Source: a virus. From it: a DNA stretch of 20,029 nucleotides. A program made the translations under genes and the position numbers. The notes beneath the pieces are model-generated. The model was not told the DNA's origin. It did not search any database and saw only the letters and a list, made by a program, of their open reading frames with translations. The first letter of the stretch is position 1. Each line of letters opens with the position of its first letter. The stretch is from positions 1-20,029 of IMG/VR virus record IMGVR_UViG_3300025660_000034; one strand, 5' to 3'. Positions 1,971-17,857 of this stretch are shown piece by piece.

Positions 1971-1999
1971 TGTACATTTGCTGTTAATTGTGTTATAAT
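1971..1999 (+). promoter_or_regulatory. Promoter of DNA polymerase gene (family member 1)
   Basis: TGTACA (1971-1976), a 17-base spacer and TATAAT (1994-1999). The upstream block TGTACATTTGCTG is shared, with two or three changes, with the promoters at 4517, 6348 and 11828. A start 7 bases after the -10 box would fall on base 2006, which is the A of the polymerase ATG. Confidence 0.8.
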
Positions 2000-2005
2000 A
2001 GATAC

Positions 2006-4513
2006 ATGATTAATAAAAAAATATATACTAATGCATATCGATACGGCAATAAAATTCGCTATATCGGCTATGAAGACGGAAAGCGTGTCCAACGCGCTAT
2101 CCCTTTCAAACCTACTCTTTACGTAACCTCACAAGATACTTCTTCTAAATGGAAATCTCTTGACGGGAGTAACATTGAACCTATCGACTTTAGTTCAATG
2201 AAAGAAGCTTCAGACTTTGTCAAGCAATATTCTGGTGTAGACCGGTTTAACATATATGGTAATACCAATTATGCTATTCAATATCTGAATCAAGAATTCC
2301 CTGGCCAGATCAAATGGGATCCTAAACATATCAACATAACCTCTATCGATATTGAAACAAAATTCGAAGACGGCTTCCCTCACCCTGATATAGCAGATCA
2401 AGAGGTGACCGCAATCACATGCAAAAATAACATTGATGATATCTATTATGTCTTTGGTTGTGGTGAATATGATGTTGAGAAGTCATATATGCAAACCAAC
2501 CAAGTGATATACACTAAATGTAATGATGAGAAAGAATTGCTTATGCGATATGTTATTCATATGCAAGATGTAGATATCATCACCGGTTGGAATGTACGTT
2601 TCTTTGATATACCATATCTTGTAAATAGAATTGCATCGGTATGTGGTGAAACTATAATGAAGAAGTTATCGCCTTGGGGTGATATTGCAGAACGAAAGAT
2701 TGAAACCTTTGGTCATGAACGACAAACCTTTGAGTTAAAAGGTGTAACTATTCTTGACTATCTTGAAATATATAAGAAGTTTACGTATGTACCAAGAGAA
2801 TCGTATAAACTAGATCATATTGGTCATGTTGAATTAGGTGAGAAGAAGTTATCTTATGAAGAGTTCGGTGATCTTAACATACTATATGCAAAGAACTATC
2901 AAAAGTTTATTGACTATAATATTAAAGACGTTGAGTTGATCGATCGCCTTGAGGATAAGTTAGGTCTTATTACGCTTGCAATGACAATGGCATACAAAGG
3001 TGGCGTTAACTATAATGATGTTATGGGTACTGTTGCTATTTGGGATTCAATTATTTATCGTGATCTAGACATGATCGGTGTAGCTATTCCTCAACCAAAA
3101 TCTCATAAGAAAGAATCTTATCCGGGTGGATATGTTAAAGATCCTATGGTCGGCAAGCATGACTGGGTTGTATCGTTTGACTTGAACTCACTTTATCCTT
3201 CGATCATTATGCAGTATAACATGAGTCCTGAAACTATCATTGCGGGTAAAGACTTGCAAGTGACAGTGGATACTATATTAGATAATAAAGTTAAGAACTC
3301 AAGGCCTGATACGGCACTAGCCGCTAATGGTGTACGATTCGATACTTCTAAGCAAGGTGTACTCCCTCGTATTATTGAAGAGATGTACGAAGAGCGTGTA
3401 TTAATTAAACGAAAAATGTTAAAAGCACAACAGGATTTAGAGAATTGTGATAAGACAAATAAGACTGCAATTTATGAAGCTGAGAAAAGAATAGCTATTG
3501 CTAAGAATAATCAGATGGCGATCAAGCTTCTTTTAAACTCGTTGTATGGTGCTATGGGTAATATATGGTTCAGATACTTTGATATACGTATTGCTACTGC
3601 CGTAACATTATCTGGACAAGCCACGATCAAATGGGCAGAGAAACATCTTAATGAATATTTAAACAAACTAATGGAGACAAATGGAAACACTGATTATGTT
3701 ATTGCTATTGACACTGATAGTGTTTACGTCAACCTGGGTCCTCTTGTACATAAGCTTAACCCTCCTAACCCTGTTGACTTCCTTGATCAAGTTTGTGGCG
3801 GTAAATTGGAGAATGTCCTTGTTAACGCTTATAATGATTTATACTCTAGGTTGGGTGGTATCACTAATAAAATGGTCATGGGTAGAGAAGTTATTGCTGA
3901 TCGAGGTATTTGGACAGCTAAGAAACGTTACATCTTAAATGTACATGATAACGAAGGTGTTCGATATACTAAGCCCAAGTTAAAGATTATGGGTATTGAA
4001 GCTATTAAGAGTTCTACCCCTGAGATATGTCGTGATGAATTAAAGAGTTTATTCACGACGATTATGACTAAGGACGAAGAAAGTGTTCAAAAACAAATTG
4101 CAGACTTTAAACAAGTATTCGTGTCAGCATCACCAGAGCAAGTAGCATTCCCTCGTGGTGTTAACGAGCTTGATAAATGGAAGGATAGCGAAACTGTATA
4201 TTCGAAAGGTACACCTATTCATGTTCGTGGTGCACTCATTCATAACAATTTTATTACAGAGAATAGACTTAAACGTCGTGTGAATCTAATTACGCCAGGC
4301 GACAAGATTAAATTCACATATCTTAAGAAGCCTAATCCAATAAAGGAGAATGTAATCTCTTTCATTGATTATCTACCAAAGCAACTTAAGTTAGAATCAT
4401 ATATAGATTATGATATGCAATTTGATAAGACATATATGAGTGTGATAACACCGATTTTAGATTCGATCGGATGGAAAGCAGAACCAGAATTCACTTTAGA
4501 AAACTTTTTTTAA
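2006..4513 (+). CDS. 43: DNA polymerase gp43, family B, with 3'-5' exonuclease
   Basis: 835 residues (T4 gp43: 898). Replicative polymerase that copies phage DNA with the gp45 clamp. Exonuclease motifs are visible: Exo I with D115-I-E117, Exo II in GWNVRFFDIPYL near residue 200, Exo III in YNIKDVELIDRL near 310. Polymerase motif A is DLNSLYPSI starting at D392, motif B is KLLLNSLYGAMGN near 510, motif C is IDTDS with D569 and D571, followed by AKKRY. All catalytic residues are present, with no intein or split. The start at 2006 (MINKKIYTNAYR) fits the family N-terminus; a TTG at 1988 would lie inside the promoter. There is no ribosome-binding site upstream and the predicted transcript starts at the ATG, so translation from the dedicated promoter would be leaderless. 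Confidence 0.98.
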   Translation: MINKKIYTNAYRYGNKIRYIGYEDGKRVQRAIPFKPTLYVTSQDTSSKWKSLDGSNIEPIDFSSMKEASDFVKQYSGVDRFNIYGNTNYAIQYLNQEFPGQIKWDPKHINITSIDIETKFEDGFPHPDIADQEVTAITCKNNIDDIYYVFGCGEYDVEKSYMQTNQVIYTKCNDEKELLMRYVIHMQDVDIITGWNVRFFDIPYLVNRIASVCGETIMKKLSPWGDIAERKIETFGHERQTFELKGVTILDYLEIYKKFTYVPRESYKLDHIGHVELGEKKLSYEEFGDLNILYAKNYQKFIDYNIKDVELIDRLEDKLGLITLAMTMAYKGGVNYNDVMGTVAIWDSIIYRDLDMIGVAIPQPKSHKKESYPGGYVKDPMVGKHDWVVSFDLNSLYPSIIMQYNMSPETIIAGKDLQVTVDTILDNKVKNSRPDTALAANGVRFDTSKQGVLPRIIEEMYEERVLIKRKMLKAQQDLENCDKTNKTAIYEAEKRIAIAKNNQMAIKLLLNSLYGAMGNIWFRYFDIRIATAVTLSGQATIKWAEKHLNEYLNKLMETNGNTDYVIAIDTDSVYVNLGPLVHKLNPPNPVDFLDQVCGGKLENVLVNAYNDLYSRLGGITNKMVMGREVIADRGIWTAKKRYILNVHDNEGVRYTKPKLKIMGIEAIKSSTPEICRDELKSLFTTIMTKDEESVQKQIADFKQVFVSASPEQVAFPRGVNELDKWKDSETVYSKGTPIHVRGALIHNNFITENRLKRRVNLITPGDKIKFTYLKKPNPIKENVISFIDYLPKQLKLESYIDYDMQFDKTYMSVITPILDSIGWKAEPEFTLENFF

Positions 4514-6704: not shown

Positions 6705-6988
6705 TGTTTGTAGTACAAAATATAAAGTTTCCAACAGTCTATACACATGTAGACAGCACACAAAAGATTGCTATTTATCATAATAATAAAGATGGCAAAT
6801 ACACCACCCGGTTTTATGTTGACAATTATCAACCTAAAGATAAGCGATATCCACAACGAAGCTTCGGCAAGTCTTTCAAAACAATGGGTGAATCTTTAGA
6901 TTTTGGTGAAAAGATATGTAGTCACTTATCTAAATTTGACGCGAATGATGAACGTGCACTTAAACGAATTTATGAGGAAACAAAATGA
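6704..6988 (+). CDS. Unknown 94-residue protein
   Basis: Not recognised. A short, charged, soluble protein with an N-terminal beta-rich half (IAIYHNN, TTRFYVDNYQ) and a basic middle (KRYPQRSFGKSF) followed by a C-terminal helix. There is no signal peptide, membrane segment or metal motif. The start overlaps the previous stop (TAATG) after GGAG, and its stop overlaps the next start (ATGA), so it is translated as part of the nucleotide-metabolism operon. The basic middle might bind nucleic acid, but this is a guess. Confidence 0.8.
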   Translation: MFVVQNIKFPTVYTHVDSTQKIAIYHNNKDGKYTTRFYVDNYQPKDKRYPQRSFGKSFKTMGESLDFGEKICSHLSKFDANDERALKRIYEETK

Positions 6989-7671
6989 AGAAAATGAACG
7001 TAAGTGATATAAGAGAACATTTCAAACAGGCCTTAGCTAAAGAGGAATTCACCATTGATAAGACTGGAGCTAAGACTATTGAATTAATCGGAGCTTCTTT
7101 TATTGCTGATGAGAATGCTATCTTCGGCAAACCAGTTGATGGTTATATTGCTAAAGAGATTGAATGGTATGAGAGTATGTCAACTAATATCAATGACATT
7201 TATGGTGACGAACGTGATGCTCCTGCAGCTTGGAAATATGCTGCGGATAAGCATGGCAATATCAATTCAAACTATGGTAAGTTAATATTCTCTAAAGAAT
7301 ATCATAACCAATATTTTAATGTTAGAAATGAATTAGTTAACAACCCTGATGGACGAAGAGCTGAAATGGTTTACAATCGCCCATCGGTTTGGACCGAATT
7401 TGATAAAGGTGGTATGTCAGACTTCATCTGTACTAATGCAGTTACATATTATATCAGAAACAAGCAAATCCACTGTGTTGTTCAAATGAGATCTAATGAT
7501 GTAGTCTTTGGATATAAGAATGATTACGCTTGGCAAAAGTATGTATTAGACTCTTTAGTTAAATACATTAACTTACATGAAGATCATCCGGACGAGTTAT
7601 CAACTGGTGATATCCATTGGCAAGTACAGAATCTCCACGTATATGAAAAACACTTTAGCTTGGTAGAATAA
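6985..7671 (+). CDS. 42: Thymidylate-synthase-fold enzyme, likely dCMP hydroxymethylase (gp42-like)
   Basis: 228 residues (T4 gp42: 246). Core features of the thymidylate synthase fold: NSNYGKLIF (substrate loop), C149 as catalytic Cys, then exactly 20 residues on R169-S-N-D172, then G176-Y-K-N-D180-Y-A182, and H218-V-Y220. Counting from the Cys gives no gap against E. coli ThyA (C146, R166, D169, G173, N177, A179), so D180 stands where ThyA has N177. Asn reads dUMP; Asp there is the mark of dCMP hydroxymethylases such as T4 gp42 and of the ThyA N177D mutant that prefers dCMP. The gene sits between 43 and uvsX, as 42 does in T4, and a glucosyltransferase homologue follows. A separate ThyX gene (14277) makes a thymidylate role unnecessary. 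Likely makes 5-hydroxymethyl-dCMP with methylene-tetrahydrofolate. Confidence 0.8.
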   Translation: MKKMNVSDIREHFKQALAKEEFTIDKTGAKTIELIGASFIADENAIFGKPVDGYIAKEIEWYESMSTNINDIYGDERDAPAAWKYAADKHGNINSNYGKLIFSKEYHNQYFNVRNELVNNPDGRRAEMVYNRPSVWTEFDKGGMSDFICTNAVTYYIRNKQIHCVVQMRSNDVVFGYKNDYAWQKYVLDSLVKYINLHEDHPDELSTGDIHWQVQNLHVYEKHFSLVE

Positions 7672-7704
7672 CATGAGTAAAATATTTAATATAGGAGTTA
7701 TATA

Positions 7705-9138
7705 ATGAAAGTTGCTTTTATCTTTGGAAAGGGCATCGAAGGATGCGGCGTTACTAAAGGCGCAAACATATTTGAATCTTGGTTAGTGTCACAAGGACAT
7801 GAAACCATTGTAGTTGATTTTGACAACAAACAAAAATTTGGTCGTGCTAAAGATACTGAATGGAAAAGTACTATCCATCGTGTTGAATCTAATCACGATC
7901 TTAAAGATGCACAGCCAGTACTTGATGAAGTAAATACTTGCGATATTGCAATTATACATTCATTCCCAACACGTAAAAATGGAAAGTATATCGATCGTTT
8001 CCGTGAATTTGTTGAAGGCATTGGAGATCCAATCATTGTAATGCACGACCATGCTATTACAAAGAACACTATTAACAGACAAACACAAGCCGCTGAGTTG
8101 TTTTCTCTAGCAGACATTGGTGTTACACAATCATTTGAAGGTTACTCTAACGAGGGTTATCTACACACTGATCCAGGCCTTGAAGGTCGACTAATGGAGA
8201 ATCCAATATGGGTTCGCACTGGTGAATACGACAAACATCGTGCATCCCTTGAAGATCGTAAAAAGCACTTTATGTATATGGGTCGTATGTCAACACTTAA
8301 AGATCCGGGTATGATTTGTCGTATTGAACCACATTTAAATAATGACTGGGATTTAACTTTGATGGGTTGTGAACGTTCTATCTCATCTATTGGAAATCCA
8401 AACTCTAAAACTCTTGCCACTGATCCAGCACCTTACCATAAATCATATCAACCAAAGATTAAATTTATTGGCACAAATTCTGCAGGCGAACACTATGAAC
8501 CAGCTAAAGAAAAAGAAAAGACTGGTACCACGATTACAGCATATGATAGTTACAAATATGATTTTGGAATGAATCAACTTGGTAGTTCTATGGCAGCTTG
8601 GTGTGGATATCGTCTAGGTAATCCAAAAGAGTATGGCCATCGTATGGAATATACTGTAATTGAATCATTCCTTTTATCTCTTCCTGTTATTAGTAAGCAC
8701 TTTGCTGAAAACGCAGTATCACCTGAAGGTAAAAAGTGGGGTGAATACTATGGTCCACTAATATCTGAAGCAACATGTGAAGAAGAGTTAGCAGCAGAAT
8801 TAAATAGAATCTATGATAACAAAGAAGAATGGATTACTCGTACAAAAGCTTGCCAAGAATTAGTTTATAACTTTAATGATATTGAAGTGCTTGGTCCTAA
8901 GTTCTTAGATTTTGTGTTGACAAAAGGAAAAAGACGTGATAATATAGACTTTATGGATAGGATTTCAAGTTATTTTCCAAGTGCAAAACAACGACGTGAA
9001 GCTGGTGAGATTATTGTATCAACACCAAGCAGTGTATTAAATGAAAAAGCATACACACTTGTAGATGGCAGACAAAATGAAATCAAAGAACCTAAAGAAA
9101 CAGGTGCTACACTTGAGGGATTTTTTAATGTATCATAA
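7705..9138 (+). CDS. agt: DNA alpha-glycosyltransferase, homologue of T4 AGT
   Basis: 477 residues (T4 AGT: about 400). The N-terminus GKGIEGCGVTKG (residues 8-19) matches T4 AGT ARGLEGCGVTK, followed by the same Rossmann-type pattern. H114-D-H116, then INRQTQAAE and ADIG, parallel the T4 HDHS segment; MGRMSTLKD (192-200) parallels IGRTTTWK; HRMEYTVIES (312-321) parallels RSLEYTHLEL, the nucleotide-sugar site of GT-B enzymes. T4 AGT transfers glucose from UDP-glucose to hydroxymethylcytosine in phage DNA, protecting it from restriction. An insert of about 45 residues around 235-290 and a C-terminal extension of roughly 50 residues are absent from T4 AGT. GGAG precedes the ATG by 7 bases. The donor sugar cannot be read from sequence; downstream genes hint at one other than UDP-glucose. 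Confidence 0.88.
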   Translation: MKVAFIFGKGIEGCGVTKGANIFESWLVSQGHETIVVDFDNKQKFGRAKDTEWKSTIHRVESNHDLKDAQPVLDEVNTCDIAIIHSFPTRKNGKYIDRFREFVEGIGDPIIVMHDHAITKNTINRQTQAAELFSLADIGVTQSFEGYSNEGYLHTDPGLEGRLMENPIWVRTGEYDKHRASLEDRKKHFMYMGRMSTLKDPGMICRIEPHLNNDWDLTLMGCERSISSIGNPNSKTLATDPAPYHKSYQPKIKFIGTNSAGEHYEPAKEKEKTGTTITAYDSYKYDFGMNQLGSSMAAWCGYRLGNPKEYGHRMEYTVIESFLLSLPVISKHFAENAVSPEGKKWGEYYGPLISEATCEEELAAELNRIYDNKEEWITRTKACQELVYNFNDIEVLGPKFLDFVLTKGKRRDNIDFMDRISSYFPSAKQRREAGEIIVSTPSSVLNEKAYTLVDGRQNEIKEPKETGATLEGFFNVS

Positions 9139-10171
9139 ACGTATTGTAGTAGATTTTGACGACACCTTAGCTTTCCATCAAAACCGTAAATTTGATCAAG
9201 CTTTACCAAACAAGCCTCTTATTACGAAGCTAAACAAGCTGCATGCTGATGGTTGGCAAATTGATATTTTTACAGCTCGTGGTTCTATATCATGTAAAAA
9301 TCGTGAAGATGCTCGTGATAAGTATGAAACAAACATGCTTAAATGGTTGAATAAGCACAAAGTAAAGTTTAATATGCTCTCATTTGATAAACCATTAGCA
9401 ACTTATTATATCGATGATAAAGGTATTATGCCTGAAGATTTTATTGAAGTTGATATTCGTGAACTTGAAGGTGGATTATCTGGTGGTGAAATATATACCG
9501 ATGGTAAAGTAGTCCATAAGCAAGATAGTAATGCTCATGAAACACGGCTTTGGTTTGAAAGAGCTGAAAAGATTGGTATTAAAACACCTGCTATTCATCG
9601 TGTTGTTGGTGAAACAATTACTATGGATTATATTGATCACGATGAAAACTTCTTTAAAGAAAACTTTTGGATGGCTTTAGCTACAGTTCAAACACAGTTA
9701 GATAAAATGAAGAAATTAAAGCCTGTTGATAATAGATCTTATGTAACGTTTAGTAGTTATATTGATCGTATTGAAGAACATGCACAAAATTCTGGCCAGA
9801 AAAAACTGATGGACGTAGCAGCAAGTTTAAAGGGTTATAAAATAAAGCGTAGTTATTCGCATGGTGATTTTGGCATTAAAAACATGTTATTCAATAATTG
9901 TGATATGCATTTAATGCATTTAATTGATCCAATTTATGGCGTGTTTGGTTCTACTGAATTAGATGCTGCAAAGTTTTGCGCGAGCCTGCTTATTAACGAG
10001 TACCCGAACAAACTATTTAGTCGATCTTTAAATTATTTGGCTATGGCAAATGATATAAATAGAAGTATGCTGGTATCGTTGGTAGCAGCCGAAGTGACTA
10101 GGGTGTACAAATATCACCCTAACAAAGATTTTATTATGGAGTGTATTGATAATGTTTACAAACAAAGCTGA
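9128..10171 (+). CDS. HAD phosphatase-like domain fused to aminoglycoside-phosphotransferase-type kinase domain
   Basis: 347 residues, two domains. The first 110 residues are HAD-like: D9-F-D11-D-T-L (nucleophile loop), FTARG (48-52, motif II Thr), K88-P and YYIDD with D96-D97 (motif IV). The rest resembles kinases that phosphorylate small sugars or choline: SYSHGDFGIKNML with H245-G-D247 and N252 (catalytic loop), then LIDPIYG with D267 (metal site). Fusions of this kind occur in capsular and sugar-nucleotide loci. Starts at 9128 behind GAGGG, overlapping the glycosyltransferase end by 11 bases; an ATG at 9065 would add 21 residues lying inside that gene. Probable role: preparing a phosphorylated sugar or polyol for the cytidylyltransferase downstream. 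Domains sure, substrate unknown. Confidence 0.78.
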   Translation: MYHKRIVVDFDDTLAFHQNRKFDQALPNKPLITKLNKLHADGWQIDIFTARGSISCKNREDARDKYETNMLKWLNKHKVKFNMLSFDKPLATYYIDDKGIMPEDFIEVDIRELEGGLSGGEIYTDGKVVHKQDSNAHETRLWFERAEKIGIKTPAIHRVVGETITMDYIDHDENFFKENFWMALATVQTQLDKMKKLKPVDNRSYVTFSSYIDRIEEHAQNSGQKKLMDVAASLKGYKIKRSYSHGDFGIKNMLFNNCDMHLMHLIDPIYGVFGSTELDAAKFCASLLINEYPNKLFSRSLNYLAMANDINRSMLVSLVAAEVTRVYKYHPNKDFIMECIDNVYKQS

Positions 10172-10619
10172 GATAGCAAGAAAAGTTGGTAAGTCTGTTG
10201 AAGAAGTAAGAATTGGTTTTACCTGTTCTACTTTTGATTTATTACATGCTGGTCATATTGTAATGCTACAAGAAGCTAAAGAGCTTTGTGATTATCTCAT
10301 TTGCGGGTTATTAACCGATCCTACGGTTGACCGTCCTGATTCAAAAAATAAACCAATCCAAACTCCGTTTGAACGATATGTTCAATTGGCGGGTTGTCGT
10401 TTTGTTGATGAAGTCATTCCATTCAGTACAGAACAAGAAATCGTTGATATGATTTTAACTATTCAACCACACATTAGAATCGTTGGCGAAGAATATAAAG
10501 GCACAGATCATACTGGTGTTGGCTTATGTTCTATTCACTATAACAAACGTAAGCACTCGTTTTCATCTACAGATTTAAGGAATCGTGTAGTAGAAGCAAG
10601 TGCAGGAGAAAATAAATGA
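10152..10619 (+). CDS. Cytidylyltransferase-like protein (TagD/glycerol-3-phosphate type)
   Basis: 155 residues. Rossmann-type nucleotidyltransferase: GFTCSTFDLLHAGHIVMLQ carries the HxGH nucleotide-binding motif, followed by DYLICGLLTDP, PFERYVQLAGCRFVDEVIPF, IVGEEYKG and S-S-T-D-L-R-N-R near the C-terminus, the counterpart of the ISTTxLR motif. Relatives activate glycerol-3-phosphate, phosphocholine, ethanolamine phosphate or heptose phosphate with CTP. The start at ATG 10152 has GGAG 10 bases upstream and overlaps the preceding gene by 20 bases; a TTG at 10146 is also open. With the kinase and the AGT homologue upstream it could supply a CDP-linked donor for DNA modification. Alternatively it belongs to a surface or lipid pathway, but no such genes are nearby. 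Confidence 0.85.
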   Translation: MFTNKAEIARKVGKSVEEVRIGFTCSTFDLLHAGHIVMLQEAKELCDYLICGLLTDPTVDRPDSKNKPIQTPFERYVQLAGCRFVDEVIPFSTEQEIVDMILTIQPHIRIVGEEYKGTDHTGVGLCSIHYNKRKHSFSSTDLRNRVVEASAGENK

Positions 10620-11824
10620 CTTATACATACGCATCCATCGTACCCTTAATTGGTGGTGAAACTCTCGCAATGCAAAGCGTTTTTGGTAAACGACCAGAGT
10701 ATATTTTATCTTATGATGTGTTTGCTGGTAACGATAAACACTTATTAGAATATTATAATTATGAAGTACCGTATCATGTTTTAGACAAAGATGATATGTC
10801 AAAGGTTAACCTTGAACAGGTGGACGTAGTTAATACTGTATGTCCTTGTGCTGGGTTAAGTTCGTTGAGTGTTTCTGCTAGTGCTGACTCATCTGTTAAT
10901 GATTGGATGATTAATACTACTAAACATGTATTAGAGAATATGCAACCAAAGGTTTTTTGGGGTGAGAATGCTCCACGTCTTGCAACTAAAATGGGTTCAC
11001 CGGTTGTCGAGAAGATACGTAAGATTGGAAAGGAGTATGGTTATACCTTTTCGATATACAAAACAAAGAGTCTATTGCATGGCTTAAGTCAGGTAAGAGA
11101 TAGAACTTTCTACTTCTTTTGGAAAGGTGATGAAATACCGTTGTTTGATTATTATAATAGACCTAATCAAAACATGTGTGAAATGATTAGATCAGTACCA
11201 AGCGATCCGGCTGACCCAATGAATGTGCTTACATCTAACAAAGTGCCTTCACAAGATGATCATTACTATAAATTTATTCTTGAAGAGATTTGTGGTGGTA
11301 TTACCCATAAAGAATTTGTGGCCAGTCTTGAGCCAGGTCGAAGTGTTAATCCCCAATTGTATATAGAGAAACACAGTGATTATACTAAAGTTGCTGATTG
11401 GTTAATAAAGAATGGTAATCCAAAGGCTGCAGATAAAGCATTGAGAAATGCAGAGAAAATTGCTGGTGGTGGTAACCTTATGAGACGTACCAGTGAAATC
11501 CCATCTGATTATACAGGTGCTTTCGTTGGACATCTTCCTATGCGCGTAACACACCCTGATGAAGATCGATACTTAACATATCGTGAAGCTATGGAGTTTA
11601 TGAAGTTGCCTAGAGACTTTAATATCATTAGCCCTAAGAAGAATCTTAATCATATCTGTCAGAATGTACCTCTCACGACAGCAGCTGATATGGCAACTAA
11701 TATTAAACGGTATTTAGAAGGGACATGTGAAATGATTAGAGATGATTATCTTATTCAAGACAATAAATCTAAGAAGCTAGTTATGACAAATAGGTCAAGT
11801 TCTTTAGAAGAATTTTTAAAATAA
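10616..11824 (+). CDS. DNA C5-cytosine methyltransferase
   Basis: 402 residues. The main motifs are present in order: P77-C78 in VCPCAGLSS (catalytic Cys, motif IV), G116-E-N118 in GENAP (motif VI), Q159-V-R161-D-R163 (motif VIII), RYLTYREAMEFMKLP (motif IX region) and NVPLTTAADM (motif X). Motif I is unusual (PLIGGET in place of FxGxG), but the other catalytic residues are intact. The target-recognition region between 170 and 300 is of ordinary size. Such enzymes place a methyl on C5 of cytosine in DNA. That fits poorly with hydroxymethylated cytosine from the gp42-like enzyme, so the target may be host DNA, remaining cytosines, or the enzyme may be modified in function. The start overlaps the previous stop by 4 bases (ATGA). 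Last gene of the operon. Confidence 0.85.
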   Translation: MTYTYASIVPLIGGETLAMQSVFGKRPEYILSYDVFAGNDKHLLEYYNYEVPYHVLDKDDMSKVNLEQVDVVNTVCPCAGLSSLSVSASADSSVNDWMINTTKHVLENMQPKVFWGENAPRLATKMGSPVVEKIRKIGKEYGYTFSIYKTKSLLHGLSQVRDRTFYFFWKGDEIPLFDYYNRPNQNMCEMIRSVPSDPADPMNVLTSNKVPSQDDHYYKFILEEICGGITHKEFVASLEPGRSVNPQLYIEKHSDYTKVADWLIKNGNPKAADKALRNAEKIAGGGNLMRRTSEIPSDYTGAFVGHLPMRVTHPDEDRYLTYREAMEFMKLPRDFNIISPKKNLNHICQNVPLTTAADMATNIKRYLEGTCEMIRDDYLIQDNKSKKLVMTNRSSSLEEFLK

Positions 11825-11887: not shown

Positions 11888-12925
11888 ATGAGTATAATGG
11901 ATAAACTCAAGAAGAATAGTAGAATTAAGGAATCGGCAATCCTTAACAAATCTAAGCTATTCACTAATCAGGATATGGTACCTACACCAGTTCCGATGAT
12001 TAACGTAGCATTGTCCGGTGATCCCGATGGTGGATTAACATCAGGCCTAACTGTACTTGCCGGACCATCGAAGCACTTCAAAACTTCGTTTGGTTTGTTA
12101 ATGGCTGCAGCTTATCTTAAGAAACATGATGATGCTATTATGTTATTCTATGATTCAGAGTTCGGCTCACCACAATCATACTTTGAAAGTTTCGGTATTG
12201 ACACTGGTAGAGTATTACATACACCAATCACTGACGTTGAAGAGCTAAAGTTTGATGTGGTAAATCAGTTAGAAGCTATCGAGAAAGAAGATAAAGTTAT
12301 TATTGTTATTGACTCTATTGGTAACCTTGCATCTAAGAAAGAAATGGAAGATGCTAAGAATGAGAAGAGTGTTGCTGACATGTCACGTGCTAAAGCCTTG
12401 AAAGGTTTGTTTAGAATGTGTACACCATATCTTTCAATGAGAGATATTCCAATGCTTGCAATCAATCATACCTACCAAACAATGGAGATGTTCTCTAAAG
12501 CTGTTGTGTCTGGTGGAACTGGAATTTACTATAGTGCTGATAACATTTGGATCATTGGTAGACAACAAGAGAAAGAAGGTAAGGACATTAAAGGTTATAA
12601 CTTTATTGTTAATGTTGAAAAGTCTCGATTCGTTAAAGAGAAGAGCAAGATTCCTATTGGTGTAACTTGGGAAGGTGGTATTGATCGATACACTGGTTTA
12701 TTAGATGCTGCTATTGAAGGTGGATTTGTTGTTAAGCCTACGATGGGTTGGTATTCAAAAGTGAACACCGCAACCGGTGAAGTCTCCGAAGATAAGTTAA
12801 GAGCTAAAGCATTAGATGGCGAGTTCTGGGAACCTATCCTTAAAGATCAAGCCTTCAAAGACTTCTTAAAGAATAAGTATGAAATCGGTCATGCCACTAT
12901 GATTAAAGGTGATATCTCTGAATGA
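11888..12925 (+). CDS. uvsX: UvsX recombinase, RecA family
   Basis: 345 residues. Strand-exchange protein of T4-type recombination-dependent replication and repair, acting on ssDNA with UvsY and gp32. Walker A is G59-P-S-K-H-F-K-T66, close to the T4 form GPSKSFKS; Walker B is VIIVIDSIGNL near 133-143; the segment SRAKALKGLFRMCTPYL and the late VNVEKSRFVKEKSKIPI also fit UvsX. AGGAG 7 bases before ATG 11888 fixes the start. A 4-base overlap with the helicase gene, the T4-like order uvsX-(40)-41 and its own promoter show a recombination and helicase unit; T4 gene 40 is missing between them. Confidence 0.96.
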   Translation: MSIMDKLKKNSRIKESAILNKSKLFTNQDMVPTPVPMINVALSGDPDGGLTSGLTVLAGPSKHFKTSFGLLMAAAYLKKHDDAIMLFYDSEFGSPQSYFESFGIDTGRVLHTPITDVEELKFDVVNQLEAIEKEDKVIIVIDSIGNLASKKEMEDAKNEKSVADMSRAKALKGLFRMCTPYLSMRDIPMLAINHTYQTMEMFSKAVVSGGTGIYYSADNIWIIGRQQEKEGKDIKGYNFIVNVEKSRFVKEKSKIPIGVTWEGGIDRYTGLLDAAIEGGFVVKPTMGWYSKVNTATGEVSEDKLRAKALDGEFWEPILKDQAFKDFLKNKYEIGHATMIKGDISE

Positions 12926-14277
12926 ATTTAGAAACATTAATATTACGTAACTTAATTCAAGATGAAAATTATACTAGAACAGTAATACCTCATATCAAGC
13001 CAAAATACTTTAATGGTCCTCATAAGATTTTATTCAATGAGATTGTTAAGTTTGTTACTGAATATAGTAAAATGCCTAACGTTGAAGCACTTAATGTTGA
13101 GCTTCAGAAGAATGGTAATATCCATCAAGATGAAATCGGTGAAGTGTTTGCTATCGCTAATGATTTGGATAAAGTGATTGAAGATACTAATGCAGAATGG
13201 TTAACGAAACAAACTGAGAAGTGGTGTCAAGATAGATCTATTTACCTTGCCATTATGGAATCTATTGATATTATTGATGGTAAGCATGACACACTTCAAA
13301 ACAATGCATTGCCTGAATTATTAAGTGATGCATTAGGTGTTTCATTTGATACTAACATTGGCCATGACTATATTGATAACTCCGATGATCGCTATGAGTT
13401 TTATCATAGAGAGGAAGAACATTTACCGTTTGACTTAGAGATGTTTAACAAGATCACTAAAGGTGGACTTGTTAACAAGAGTTTGAATATTGCCCTTGCA
13501 GGCACAGGTGTAGGTAAGTCTTTGTTTATGTGTCATGTAGCTGCAGGTGCTTTAACACAGATGAAAAATGTGTTATACATATCTATGGAAATGTCCGAAG
13601 AAAGAGTTGCTGAACGTATTGATGCTAATCTGATGAATGTACCTATTGACCAGTTAGAGAACTTAAGTAAAGATATGTTCGATAAGAAGTTACATAAGAT
13701 TGCTAACGTCGGTATTGGTAAGTTGATTGTTAAAGAATATCCTACAGGTGCTGCTAATGCTTCTCACTTCAGAGCCTTACTTAATGAGTTGAAGTTAAAG
13801 AAGGACTTCATACCAGATTTGATTTGTGTTGATTATCTAAACATTTGTTCTAGTAGTAGAATGAAAGCTGACGGTGCTGGTGGGTCATATCAATATGTTA
13901 AAGCCATTGCTGAAGAGCTACGTGGCTTGGCTATTGAGAATAACCTACCTATACTATCCGCGACTCAAACAACACGCGGTGGTTATGGTAATTCAGATGT
14001 AGGACTTGAAGATACTTCGGAATCATTTGGTCTACCAGCAACGGCAGATCTAATGTTTGCTTTAATCTCTACTGAAGAGTTGGAGAATCTAAATCAAATA
14101 ATGGTGAAGCAATTAAAGAATAGATATAACGATCCAACAGGAGCTACAAAGAAATTTGTCGTTGGAATTGATCGAGCTAAGATGAGATTGTATGATGTCG
14201 AAGACTCTGCACAATCGTTAAATTTGGGTACTGTTCAAGCAAGTACCACTAACAACTTTGAAGGATTTACAGTATAA
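12922..14277 (+). CDS. 41: Replicative DNA helicase gp41, DnaB family
   Basis: 451 residues (T4 gp41: 475). Hexameric helicase of the replication fork. Walker A is G194-T-G-V-G-K-S200 after SLNIAL; NVLYISMEMSEERVAERI (motif H1a region) and LICVDYLNIC (Walker B) follow, then SATQTTRGGY (sensor region) and KNRYNDPT. The N-terminal 170 residues form the helical domain that contacts primase in this family. Start overlaps the uvsX stop by 4 bases (ATGA). Normally a TOPRIM primase (gp61) gene lies nearby in T4; here the next genes are ThyX and dCMP deaminase, and no gp61 is visible in the window. Confidence 0.95.
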   Translation: MNLETLILRNLIQDENYTRTVIPHIKPKYFNGPHKILFNEIVKFVTEYSKMPNVEALNVELQKNGNIHQDEIGEVFAIANDLDKVIEDTNAEWLTKQTEKWCQDRSIYLAIMESIDIIDGKHDTLQNNALPELLSDALGVSFDTNIGHDYIDNSDDRYEFYHREEEHLPFDLEMFNKITKGGLVNKSLNIALAGTGVGKSLFMCHVAAGALTQMKNVLYISMEMSEERVAERIDANLMNVPIDQLENLSKDMFDKKLHKIANVGIGKLIVKEYPTGAANASHFRALLNELKLKKDFIPDLICVDYLNICSSSRMKADGAGGSYQYVKAIAEELRGLAIENNLPILSATQTTRGGYGNSDVGLEDTSESFGLPATADLMFALISTEELENLNQIMVKQLKNRYNDPTGATKKFVVGIDRAKMRLYDVEDSAQSLNLGTVQASTTNNFEGFTV

Positions 14278-14990
14278 TGAAAAGAACAAATAATATAAAA
14301 ACAGTAGATAAGGTAGCAACACCAGTAACACACACCACAAGAACAAAAGCAACGTTAGTGAGTTATTCAACACCGTCAGAAGAGTTTAAAGAAGAAGGTT
14401 TGGATGATGTAAAAGACTTAGTTGCATACTGTGCTAGAGTAAGTAATCCATCCAACCAGCTTAATAAAGAGACCGCTGATAAGTTAATTGGGTACTTGAT
14501 TAAACACCAACATTGGTCTCCATTAGAGATGGTAAGTGCTTGTATTGAAATTGAAACTACAAGAGATATTGCACGTCAAATCCTAAGACATAGATCATTT
14601 TCTTTCCAAGAGTTCTCTCAACGATATGCCGATCCTACTAAAGACCTATCATTTATGTTAAGAGAAGCTAGGTTACAAGATACTAAGAATAGACAGAACT
14701 CTATTGAAAATAACAATGAAGTATTAAGTGCTATGTGGAGAATCAAACAAGAGAACGTTATTAAAAATGCACTTAGCGCTTATAATTGGGCTATTGAGAA
14801 TGGTATTGCTAAAGAACAAGCCAGAGCAGTATTGCCTGAAGGTAACACTATGAGTAGGATGTATATGAATGGAACTATTAGAAGTTGGATTCATTACATC
14901 GACCTACGATCTAAGAATGGAACTCAAAAAGAACATATTGAAGTTGCATTAGCGTGTGCTCAAGCCATTGATAAAATCTTTAAATTATGA
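14277..14990 (+). CDS. thyX: Flavin-dependent thymidylate synthase ThyX
   Basis: 237 residues. The ThyX signature RHRx7S is seen at R104-H-R-S-F-S-F-Q-E-F-S114 followed by QRY; HQHWSPLEM, DIARQILRH, EQARAVLPEG and SWIHYIDLRS also fit. It makes dTMP from dUMP with methylene-tetrahydrofolate and FAD, unlike the Cys-dependent ThyA fold. An N-terminal tail of about 25 residues precedes the usual domain, and the ATG overlaps the gp41 stop by one base (TAATG). Next to it lies dCMP deaminase, giving a dCMP to dUMP to dTMP path. Coexistence with the ThyA-fold enzyme at 6985 supports a different job for the latter. Confidence 0.97.
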   Translation: MKRTNNIKTVDKVATPVTHTTRTKATLVSYSTPSEEFKEEGLDDVKDLVAYCARVSNPSNQLNKETADKLIGYLIKHQHWSPLEMVSACIEIETTRDIARQILRHRSFSFQEFSQRYADPTKDLSFMLREARLQDTKNRQNSIENNNEVLSAMWRIKQENVIKNALSAYNWAIENGIAKEQARAVLPEGNTMSRMYMNGTIRSWIHYIDLRSKNGTQKEHIEVALACAQAIDKIFKL

Positions 14991-15439
14991 TACATACTAA
15001 GAAATGGGGTGATCGATACTTAAGCATTTGTAAAGAAGTTGCTAGTTGGAGTAGAGACCCATCAACTCAGGTCGGTGCGGTAGTTGTAGGTGATAAAGGA
15101 CAAATATTATCACAAGGTTATAACGGCTTTCCGCGAAACATCAGAGATAACGCTAATAGATATAATGATAAAAAGCGTAAGTATGAGTTAATAGTTCATG
15201 CTGAAATGAATGCTATTTACAATGCTACATTAAATGGCCAATCATTGCAAGGATCTACAATGTATATATCTGGTTTAGGTGTATGTCATGAATGTGCTAA
15301 AGCAATTATTCAAGTTGGTATTACACAAGTGGTTGCCCAATGTAAAGAGATAAAACCAGGTTGGGAAGATAGTTGTAATTTAACTAAAAAATTATTTGAA
15401 GAAGCTGGCATTGATTATTTATTAGAGGAGAAAAAATGA
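14987..15439 (+). CDS. cd: dCMP deaminase
   Basis: 150 residues. Zinc-dependent cytidine deaminase fold with H71-A-E73 and C100-H-E-C103 as zinc ligands and proton shuttle, after STQVGAVVV and the QGYNGFPR substrate segment typical of dCMP deaminases. It converts dCMP to dUMP, feeding ThyX, whose gene it overlaps by 4 bases (ATGA). In hydroxymethylcytosine phages it also balances the dCMP pool against the hydroxymethylase. Start ATG 14987 fits the family N-terminus. The next small ORF overlaps the stop by 4 bases after GGAG, continuing the operon. Confidence 0.95.
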   Translation: MIHTKKWGDRYLSICKEVASWSRDPSTQVGAVVVGDKGQILSQGYNGFPRNIRDNANRYNDKKRKYELIVHAEMNAIYNATLNGQSLQGSTMYISGLGVCHECAKAIIQVGITQVVAQCKEIKPGWEDSCNLTKKLFEEAGIDYLLEEKK

Positions 15440-16555: not shown

Positions 16556-17857
16556 ATGAAACTAGTAATACTAACCAAAGACGTTAAGTCTGAAACTGTT
16601 GAGCGTCTATCCACCGAAATGACTAAAACCGGTGGTGAAGTTTATGCGGTAAACCTTGAAGGTGCCTACCTTAAAGACAATAAGATATTCAACATCGATG
16701 ATAAGAAGGGATTTGAAATATCCCCTCAAGATACAGTCGTTGCTGTTCGCGGGTCAATCACCCTTAAAGACTCTTATTTAGACCTACTATCTCAAATAGA
16801 AAAACGAAAAATCATGACGGTCAACAACCGCTTGTGTAATGAGATATGTGCTGATAAATTCAGAACTTCAATTATCCTCGATGAGGCTGGTATAGCTCAA
16901 CCTAAGACCGCCTTAATTGCTATTGGTGATAATATCAAAACCAATTACCCTGAGCAAGCATTTAACAAACTAGATACTAAATTCCCAGTTATTCTTAAAA
17001 CCCTACGTGGTGCTAAAGGTATCGGTGTATTGCTTATTGAGAGTATGCAAGCTTTAGAATCTACTACCCAATTATTATATAAGCTTGATGAAAGCTCTGA
17101 TTTGTTATTACAAGAATATATTAAATCAGACTTTGATATTAGAGTGCATGTATTAAATGGTGAAATCATTGGGGTTATGCGACGCAACGTGCCAGATGAT
17201 GATTTTAGATCAAATTACGCGCAAGGTGCAACCACTGAAAAATATAAGCTATCTAAGAAAGAAGAGGAAGTTGCACTAGCAGCTGCTAACGCCGTTAGTG
17301 GTTATTGGGTTGGGGTAGATTTTATTCCTAATAAGGGTAATCCATTAGTACTTGAAGTGAATTCATCAGCAGGCACTGAGGGCATCGAGCAGACTATTGG
17401 ATCATCTATTAATAGAAAAGTAATTAAAACCATAACTAACTCAGATAATTGGATTAAAGCTAAAACTGTGATTGGTGTTAGAGAAATATTTGAATTTGAT
17501 TTGTTTGGTAAGATGAAGGCCAAATTAGATACTGGCAATTCTGTTAAGACTCTTGTTATGCATGCCGACGATCTTGTAGTTAAAAATGATAAAGTAACCT
17601 TTACATCCCACGGCCGTGAATATACAATGAAGCTGTATGGTATTAAAAAGATTAGATTAAATGGCGACAATGGATTAGAAGAGAGGCCTATGGTTATGTT
17701 AGACTTTACCTTTAATGGTGTTATTCATAAGAATGTAACCTTTACTTTAGATGATAGATCGACAAAAACAACTGAGGTATTAGTGAATAAAGATTGGATG
17801 ATTGATAACTCATTCATCATCGATCCTAGTCTGATGTATACTTTAGGAGAATTATAA
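16556..17857 (+). CDS. RimK-like ATP-grasp ligase fused to retropepsin-like protease domain
   Basis: 433 residues. Residues 1-295 form an ATP-grasp ligase of the RimK type: VILKTLRGAKGIGVLLIES (146-164), LLLQEYIKSDFDIRVHVLNG (183-202), VGVDFIPNKGNPLVLEVNSSAG (252-273) with metal ligands E267 and N269. RimK adds Glu to the C-terminus of ribosomal protein S6. Residues about 305-425 resemble the 'ATP-dependent zinc protease' family (RimB-like, retropepsin fold): AKLDTGNSVKTLVMHADDL with D325-T-G, REYTMKL, and KTTEVLVNKDWM. In bacteria these proteins often lie next to rimK genes. Preceded by a late promoter, hence probably made late; target could be ribosome or a virion protein. No ribosome-binding site is visible. 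Confidence 0.85.
   Translation: MKLVILTKDVKSETVERLSTEMTKTGGEVYAVNLEGAYLKDNKIFNIDDKKGFEISPQDTVVAVRGSITLKDSYLDLLSQIEKRKIMTVNNRLCNEICADKFRTSIILDEAGIAQPKTALIAIGDNIKTNYPEQAFNKLDTKFPVILKTLRGAKGIGVLLIESMQALESTTQLLYKLDESSDLLLQEYIKSDFDIRVHVLNGEIIGVMRRNVPDDDFRSNYAQGATTEKYKLSKKEEEVALAAANAVSGYWVGVDFIPNKGNPLVLEVNSSAGTEGIEQTIGSSINRKVIKTITNSDNWIKAKTVIGVREIFEFDLFGKMKAKLDTGNSVKTLVMHADDLVVKNDKVTFTSHGREYTMKLYGIKKIRLNGDNGLEERPMVMLDFTFNGVIHKNVTFTLDDRSTKTTEVLVNKDWMIDNSFIIDPSLMYTLGEL

Follow-up and report, generated by a model that had tools for sequence, protein, structure and literature searches.

RESULTS

We analyzed a 20,029-base stretch of DNA (the window) that is the entire virus record IMGVR_UViG_3300025660_000034, so that our analysis of this phage's own genome covers these 20 kb, and that carries a cassette of putative DNA hypermodification genes. 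Short DNA matches to a cyanophage primase/helicase and to the DNA polymerase of Pelagibacter phage HTVC008M indicate a marine T4-like backbone, in which gene 43, uvsX, and gene 41 follow in this order. Between the DNA polymerase gp43 gene (1988-4513) and the UvsX recombinase gene (11888-12925; supported by HMM matches across loci and to JS98 UvsX), which lie outside the cassette as its left and right landmarks, are genes for a dCMP 5-hydroxymethylase of the T4 gp42 type with a thymidylate synthase (TS) fold (6985-7671), an AGT-family (GT72-like, GT-B) DNA glycosyltransferase homolog (7705-9138), an EcbF/BcbF-type HAD phosphatase (residues ~1-115) fused to an APH-fold small-molecule kinase (residues ~116-346; gene at 9131-10171), and an HxGH-type nucleotidyltransferase of the TagD/ECT/HldE-C superfamily (10152-10619) that is predicted to use CTP or ATP in activating a phosphorylated substrate. 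All of these genes are on the + strand.

The initial annotation of this DNA had described four consecutive, tightly packed genes at 6985-10619, and the genes indeed lie in the order it gave, overlapping or nearly touching. The start of the hydroxymethylase gene overlaps the preceding stop by 4 bp, and 33 bp separate this gene from the AGT homolog gene. For the HAD-kinase gene, the likely start is ATG 9131, the one found in all close relatives, and not 9065, where the mechanically called open reading frame begins; from ATG 9131, the gene has an 8-bp overlap with the AGT stop, and the nucleotidyltransferase start (ATG 10152, fixed from relatives) overlaps the kinase stop by 20 bp. As a complete cassette, however, the four-gene description fell short, as it missed a fifth gene on the + strand for a DNA cytosine-C5 methyltransferase (C5-MTase) homolog (10616-11824), which overlaps the end of the nucleotidyltransferase gene at 10619. 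The analyses below bear out the earlier calls of a base hydroxymethylase, an AGT homolog, and a HAD-kinase fusion; of the call of a CTP-using nucleotidyltransferase, the nucleotidyltransferase part stands and CTP use is plausible. The locus is the one used by T4 for gene 42 and b-gt (43-imm-42-b-gt-segA-uvsX) and by JS98 for its ara module, which also lies between gene 43 and uvsX (PMC6024577). The gene 43-uvsX interval of pelagiphage HTVC008M holds two genes only, none of them from the cassette by annotation.

The predicted hydroxymethylase aligns end to end with T4 gp42 (52% identity over 225 amino acids) and matches phrog_160 (4e-49). T4 dCMP hydroxymethylase was its top PDB profile match (5e-99), with the RB69-type enzyme 9iqu far weaker (3e-56) and true thymidylate synthases also far below. 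Catalytic Cys149 and dCMP-specifying Asp180, at the position of a TS Asn, correspond to the T4 residues and do not vary among 23 relatives, and identity to the TS homolog of JS98 was 22% over 137 amino acids. Judged by these sequence features, the enzyme is a dCMP hydroxymethylase of the gp42 type and not a thymidylate synthase or a 5-hydroxy-dCMP synthase, and we infer hydroxymethylcytosine rather than hydroxycytosine as its predicted product base. Because the window also encodes ThyX and then a dCMP deaminase (14277-15439), the TS-fold hydroxymethylase is not needed for dTMP synthesis. Separately, we observed a gp42-like TS homolog (30-35% identity) annotated as thymidylate synthase in 191 Microbacterium phage records, where modified cytosine is possible.

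The product of the second gene exceeded the Pfam cut-off for PF11440 (2.6e-6; 27.2 bits against a cut-off of 25) and matched phrog_2888 (3e-31), and T4 AGT was its sole convincing PDB profile match (1e-29). With its AlphaFold model (pLDDT 87), Foldseek ranked T4 AGT entries 1 to 9 (TM 0.80-0.84), and the other glycosyltransferases listed had TM scores of 0.68 or less. By sequence and predicted structure, this protein is an AGT-family DNA glycosyltransferase homolog with the fold and motifs of T4 AGT.

The HAD half of the fusion matched TIGR01689 (7e-13) and the PDB profiles 1xpj (3e-20) and 9iqw (9e-19), although at 48.6 bits it missed the curated EcbF/BcbF (TIGR01689) cut-off of 162 bits. The HAD residues (DxDxT, T48, K87, and DD95-96) and the APH residues (K130, HGDxxxxN at 244-251 with H244-G-D246 and N251, and D266) are invariant across 28-30 relatives. 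By PDB profile, the kinase half matched methylthioribose kinase 2olc (1.4e-5) and choline kinases (6e-4), and Foldseek with the AlphaFold model of the HAD-kinase (pLDDT 90) placed this half by fold with aminoglycoside (APH), choline, and methylthioribose kinases. In BFVD, Foldseek retrieved viral NTP-transferase-APH proteins, RB69 ORF052c among them. Two proteins of the JS98/RB69 module have close counterparts in the PDB: its "capsule biosynthesis" HAD is very similar to 9iqw, and its TS homolog to 9iqu and 9iqc; full-text searches returned nothing usable on PDB entries 9iqw, 9iqc, 9iqu, and 9ir2. Methylthioribose kinase phosphorylates the anomeric hydroxyl of a pentose. Since this pentose 1-kinase is the best solved relative of the kinase half, a sugar-1-kinase would fit, which we regard as a lead.

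The nucleotidyltransferase passed the Pfam cut-off for CTP_transf_like (PF01467, 6e-13), and its PDB profile matches were ECT 3elb and TagD 1coz, both CTP users. Among NCBIfam models, rfaE_dom_II, for the HldE domain that uses ATP, fitted it better (8e-22) than did TagD (3e-14), and it stayed below both equivalog cut-offs (53.3 of 165.4 bits for TagD and 77.6 of 181.5 bits for HldE-C). "Cytidylyltransferase" is for this reason a family label, and CTP is a plausible nucleotide for the enzyme. Our full-text search found nothing usable on residues that separate CTP from ATP use.

We surveyed gene neighborhoods in three independent IMG/VR scans with the window HAD-kinase, nucleotidyltransferase, and AGT proteins as queries. 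Counts are non-redundant at 97% identity and, being seeded by the window's own proteins, describe that subfamily and not the whole nucleotidyltransferase superfamily. A HAD-kinase gene lay within 2 kb upstream of the nucleotidyltransferase gene in 30 of 30 loci. In the 21 nucleotidyltransferase loci with long flanks, a hydroxymethylase was present in 19 and at least one candidate glycosyltransferase in all 21. The HAD-kinase gene was directly downstream of AGT in 18 of 19 AGT groups (in the exception, L086, AGT follows the nucleotidyltransferase), a hydroxymethylase was upstream in all 12 AGT groups with enough upstream sequence, and likewise in 29 of 31 HAD-kinase groups (exceptions, L085 and L042). 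A chance arrangement is implausible because the gene order recurs in dozens of divergent phages. The genes are identified, their catalytic motifs are intact, and their linkage is conserved. The survey strongly supports the earlier proposal that a hydroxymethylase, a DNA glycosyltransferase, and an activation pair form a putative hypermodification cassette: the HAD-kinase and nucleotidyltransferase pair travels with a hydroxymethylase (or, in one virus, a TET/JBP oxygenase) and with DNA glycosyltransferases, mostly between gene 43 and uvsX. A cell-wall role of the pair in relatives without AGT, which the initial annotation had named as counterevidence, is not what we saw, as these relatives keep the hydroxymethylase and carry another glycosyltransferase.

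The transferase position is not fixed. In place of AGT, or in addition to it, relatives may have a GT-B protein that weakly matches Pfam glycosyltransferases, an unassigned protein that we take as a GT-A enzyme on the basis of its DDD motif, or a TAGT/phrog_842 protein, which in close relatives L017-L020 is encoded between the HAD-kinase and the nucleotidyltransferase. TAGT/phrog_842 is a recognized DNA glycosyltransferase family, that of the T6 beta-glucosyl-HMC glucosyltransferase. The presence of two glycosyltransferases in the cassettes of several relatives, the resemblance of the window AGT donor motifs to those of T4 AGT, and the 20-kb extent of the record would be consistent with the AGT homolog taking host UDP-glucose to form glucosyl-hydroxymethylcytosine while the pair feeds a second transferase elsewhere that extends the sugar or decorates another hydroxyl. 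Since the window and most AGT-type relatives have no glycosyltransferase other than AGT in the cassette, and the HAD-kinase gene directly follows it, we consider this division of labor unlikely.

Nucleoside diphosphate (NDP)-sugar epimerase genes occur in 4 of the 21 long-flank cassettes and UDP-glucose dehydrogenase genes in others, which favors a sugar as the decorating group; of the sugar, polyol, or phospho-alcohol proposed previously, the latter two are disfavored. These same genes count against the activated group being a CDP-alcohol (of choline, ethanolamine, glycerol, or ribitol type) that would leave a phospho-alcohol or polyol as the decoration. Such a route would suit the nearest solved relatives of the nucleotidyltransferase, which use CTP on phosphoethanolamine and glycerol-3-phosphate, and the kinase fold, which matches choline/ethanolamine kinases as well as aminoglycoside kinases. 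It is nonetheless very unlikely in our view, as the transferases belong to glycosyltransferase families, we found no CDP-alcohol phosphotransferase in the window, the HAD step would be superfluous for a choline or glycerol route, and NCBIfam prefers the HldE sugar domain.

Several relatives carry additional genes within or beside the cassette. A class I fructose-bisphosphate aldolase-like gene lies between the hydroxymethylase and AGT genes of L117 (8913-9713), and class I aldolase genes, which some relatives have, may be a sign of custom-built carbon skeletons. In L111, a second, shorter nucleotidyltransferase paralog (8357-8764) just before the hydroxymethylase is itself preceded by a cupin-like gene. 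One lineage has a gene for an HD_4 metal-dependent phosphohydrolase between the hydroxymethylase and a glycosyltransferase (L074:5658-6407).

The pair is found beyond T4-like, hydroxymethylase-encoding phages. In L085, genes for a Tet_JBP oxygenase (6e-23) and TAGT (8e-12), at 6736-8951, directly precede the HAD-kinase and nucleotidyltransferase genes, and the 145-kb record contains no hydroxymethylase. The oxidized base may be T or host-made 5-methylcytosine; supply of 5-methylcytosine to this TET enzyme by a C5-MTase of its own was rejected, with no PF00145 gene in the record. In the gut phages Agathobaculum AB434P2 and L136, which are unrelated to T4, the HAD-kinase, nucleotidyltransferase, and an Asp-type hydroxymethylase occur together.

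When 84,980 species genomes of bacteria and archaea were scanned by an alignment-based method, only three loci matched. Two contained the full cassette together with other T4-like genes, in one case along with uvsX and gene 41, and on this basis are phage contigs in metagenome-assembled genomes; the third was a weak HAD-only match. We therefore rejected a host-genome origin of the HAD-kinase, as strong matches came only from phage contigs. Near-absence of the pair from bacterial genomes outside phage contigs also counts against a role in host cell walls. EcbF-type HAD and nucleotidyltransferase genes do occur in surface-sugar-like clusters of cyanophages, and nucleotidyltransferase homologs exist without a hydroxymethylase, which would fit a pair that remodels the host surface (lipopolysaccharide or capsule), in the manner of possible cyanophage auxiliary genes, beside DNA modification genes by accident. 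Against this stands the linkage to a hydroxymethylase or TET and to DNA glycosyltransferases, which persists in marine and gut phages alike, and we rate host-surface remodeling the least probable of the alternatives.

The C5-MTase homolog (PF00145, 1.5e-16) has intact PC, ENxP, and QxRxR motifs, with Pro77-Cys78, Glu117-Asn118, Arg161, and Arg163 invariant. It is present in 19 of the 21 well-flanked cassettes and also near the AGT genes of Bacillus phage G. Its presence is odd because the cytosines of such a phage should be hydroxymethylated. Elsewhere in the window, downstream of replication genes, is an ATP-grasp open reading frame that is RimK-like by eye (16556-17857).

DISCUSSION

The cassette shares with T4 a gp42-type hydroxymethylase, the AGT fold, and the locus. 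It differs in that T4 has no donor-activating kinase, phosphatase, or nucleotidyltransferase and uses host UDP-glucose, and T4 AGT is only ~18% identical to the window homolog. The pentose module of RB69/JS98 (Mosigvirus/Dhakavirus) and Thanatos shares other features with it: an APH-fold kinase, an EcbF-type HAD, a nucleotidyltransferase, a TS-family hydroxylating enzyme, a possible glycosyltransferase, and placement between gene 43 and uvsX. In that module, however, the nucleotidyltransferase is an NTP_transferase domain fused to the kinase whereas the window HxGH enzyme is encoded by a separate gene, the TS homolog is a 5-hydroxy-dCMP synthase with ~20% identity to the window enzyme, and a SIS isomerase is present. 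In Thanatos, cytosine bears a pentose, and the phage has a UDP-xylose pyrophosphorylase (PMC12838424). The RB69 arabinosyl group, previously invoked as a precedent for non-glucose decoration of hydroxymethylcytosine, no longer serves as one, since RB69 and Mosigvirus NP make 5-arabinosyl-dC from 5-hydroxy-dCMP with arabinose on 5-hydroxycytosine; the pathway to the arabinose precursor in RB69 relatives was described in 2026 as uncharacterized (PMC13390438). We rejected membership of the window cassette in the RB69/Thanatos pentose-dC module given its gp42-type hydroxymethylase, its separate HxGH gene, and the lack of a SIS isomerase in the records of 12 relatives. By analogy, the best reading is that the cassette would work on the principle of the RB69 arabinose module, but with other enzymes.

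Three further systems resemble the cassette in part. The Bacillus phage G cluster (gp301-gp313) has two AGT homologs near an APH-like kinase, a HAD, a nucleotidyltransferase, and a C5-MTase homolog, but these are separate genes, the nucleotidyltransferase is of the NTP_transferase type and not an HxGH enzyme, and the stretch viewed had no hydroxymethylase. A gene annotated as GTP pyrophosphokinase also lies near the phage G AGT genes. The operon of Agathobaculum phage AB434P2, a non-T4-like gut phage, shares the HAD-APH fusion, an HxGH nucleotidyltransferase (47% identical by tblastn), and the Asp-type hydroxymethylase; it differs in having two glycosyltransferase-like genes related to GTB2/GTx types and no AGT. 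The ADP-heptose pathway (GmhA, HldE, and GmhB) likewise uses a kinase, a HAD phosphatase, and an HxGH nucleotidyltransferase to form an NDP-sugar. With a PfkB-type HldE kinase, and with no isomerase in the window, it is a functional analog only. At least four phage lineages thus have a predicted kinase, phosphatase, and nucleotidyltransferase next to base-modifying enzymes, with fusions that vary and a nucleotidyltransferase that is not always of one type.

We propose, with a probability of roughly 70%, that the cassette encodes a cytosine hypermodification in which hydroxymethylcytosine bears a phage-activated sugar. The gp42-type enzyme would convert dCMP to 5-hydroxymethyl-dCMP, to be incorporated in place of dC. 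From a phosphorylated host sugar (probably a pentose), the HAD-APH fusion would produce a sugar-1-phosphate, with the kinase phosphorylating the anomeric position and the HAD removing the other phosphate, similarly to the ADP-heptose route. The HxGH nucleotidyltransferase would then form a CDP- or ADP-sugar, from which the AGT homolog would move the sugar onto the hydroxymethyl group in DNA, so that the glycosyl donor would be phage made instead of host UDP-glucose. Homology to the T4 enzymes argues for hydroxymethylcytosine and for transfer to DNA; a sugar as the donor, its identity, the nucleotide, and the order of the kinase and phosphatase steps are suggested more tentatively.

Several observations weigh against this proposal. 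The window kinase has no Pfam APH match, its assignment coming from motifs, profile, and fold. More distant nucleotidyltransferase homologs occur in other phages with no HAD-kinase or hydroxymethylase nearby, and in L042 the pair, an epimerase, and glycosyltransferases lie beside apparent structural genes, with no hydroxymethylase on the 26-kb contig. The records of 12 relatives yielded no SIS isomerase like that of RB69, and the phage may on this account take a host pentose phosphate. Finally, a search of relatives for a homolog of T4 gp1 (hydroxymethyl-dCMP kinase) gave no match, in a search that had no positive control.

We found no description of a HAD-APH/HxGH cassette in full-text literature searches, which did not cover subscription papers. 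Probably, judging from its gene content, the cassette represents phage cytosine hypermodification with a self-made donor other than UDP-glucose. Beyond the window, we consider it possible, at slightly less than even odds, that the HAD-APH and HxGH proteins form a widespread, interchangeable donor-making core whose CDP- or ADP-sugar would serve DNA alone and would feed varied DNA transferases (AGT type, TAGT type, or other GT-A/GT-B enzymes) acting on bases hydroxylated by gp42-type or TET/JBP enzymes. If so, phage DNA would be glycosylated from a class of nucleotide sugars for which this use is not described, yielding one or more new hydroxymethylpyrimidine sugars. For the question of how phages source non-glucose sugars for DNA, the cassette offers a compact, testable route of one fused enzyme, one nucleotidyltransferase, and one transferase, seen in many phages from the sea and also in gut phages. 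It would add sequence-encoded donor makers for DNA-labeling chemistry, and it suggests that a group of DNA modifications has so far gone unseen, with possible effects on sensitivity to restriction, CRISPR, and defenses that target hydroxymethylcytosine.

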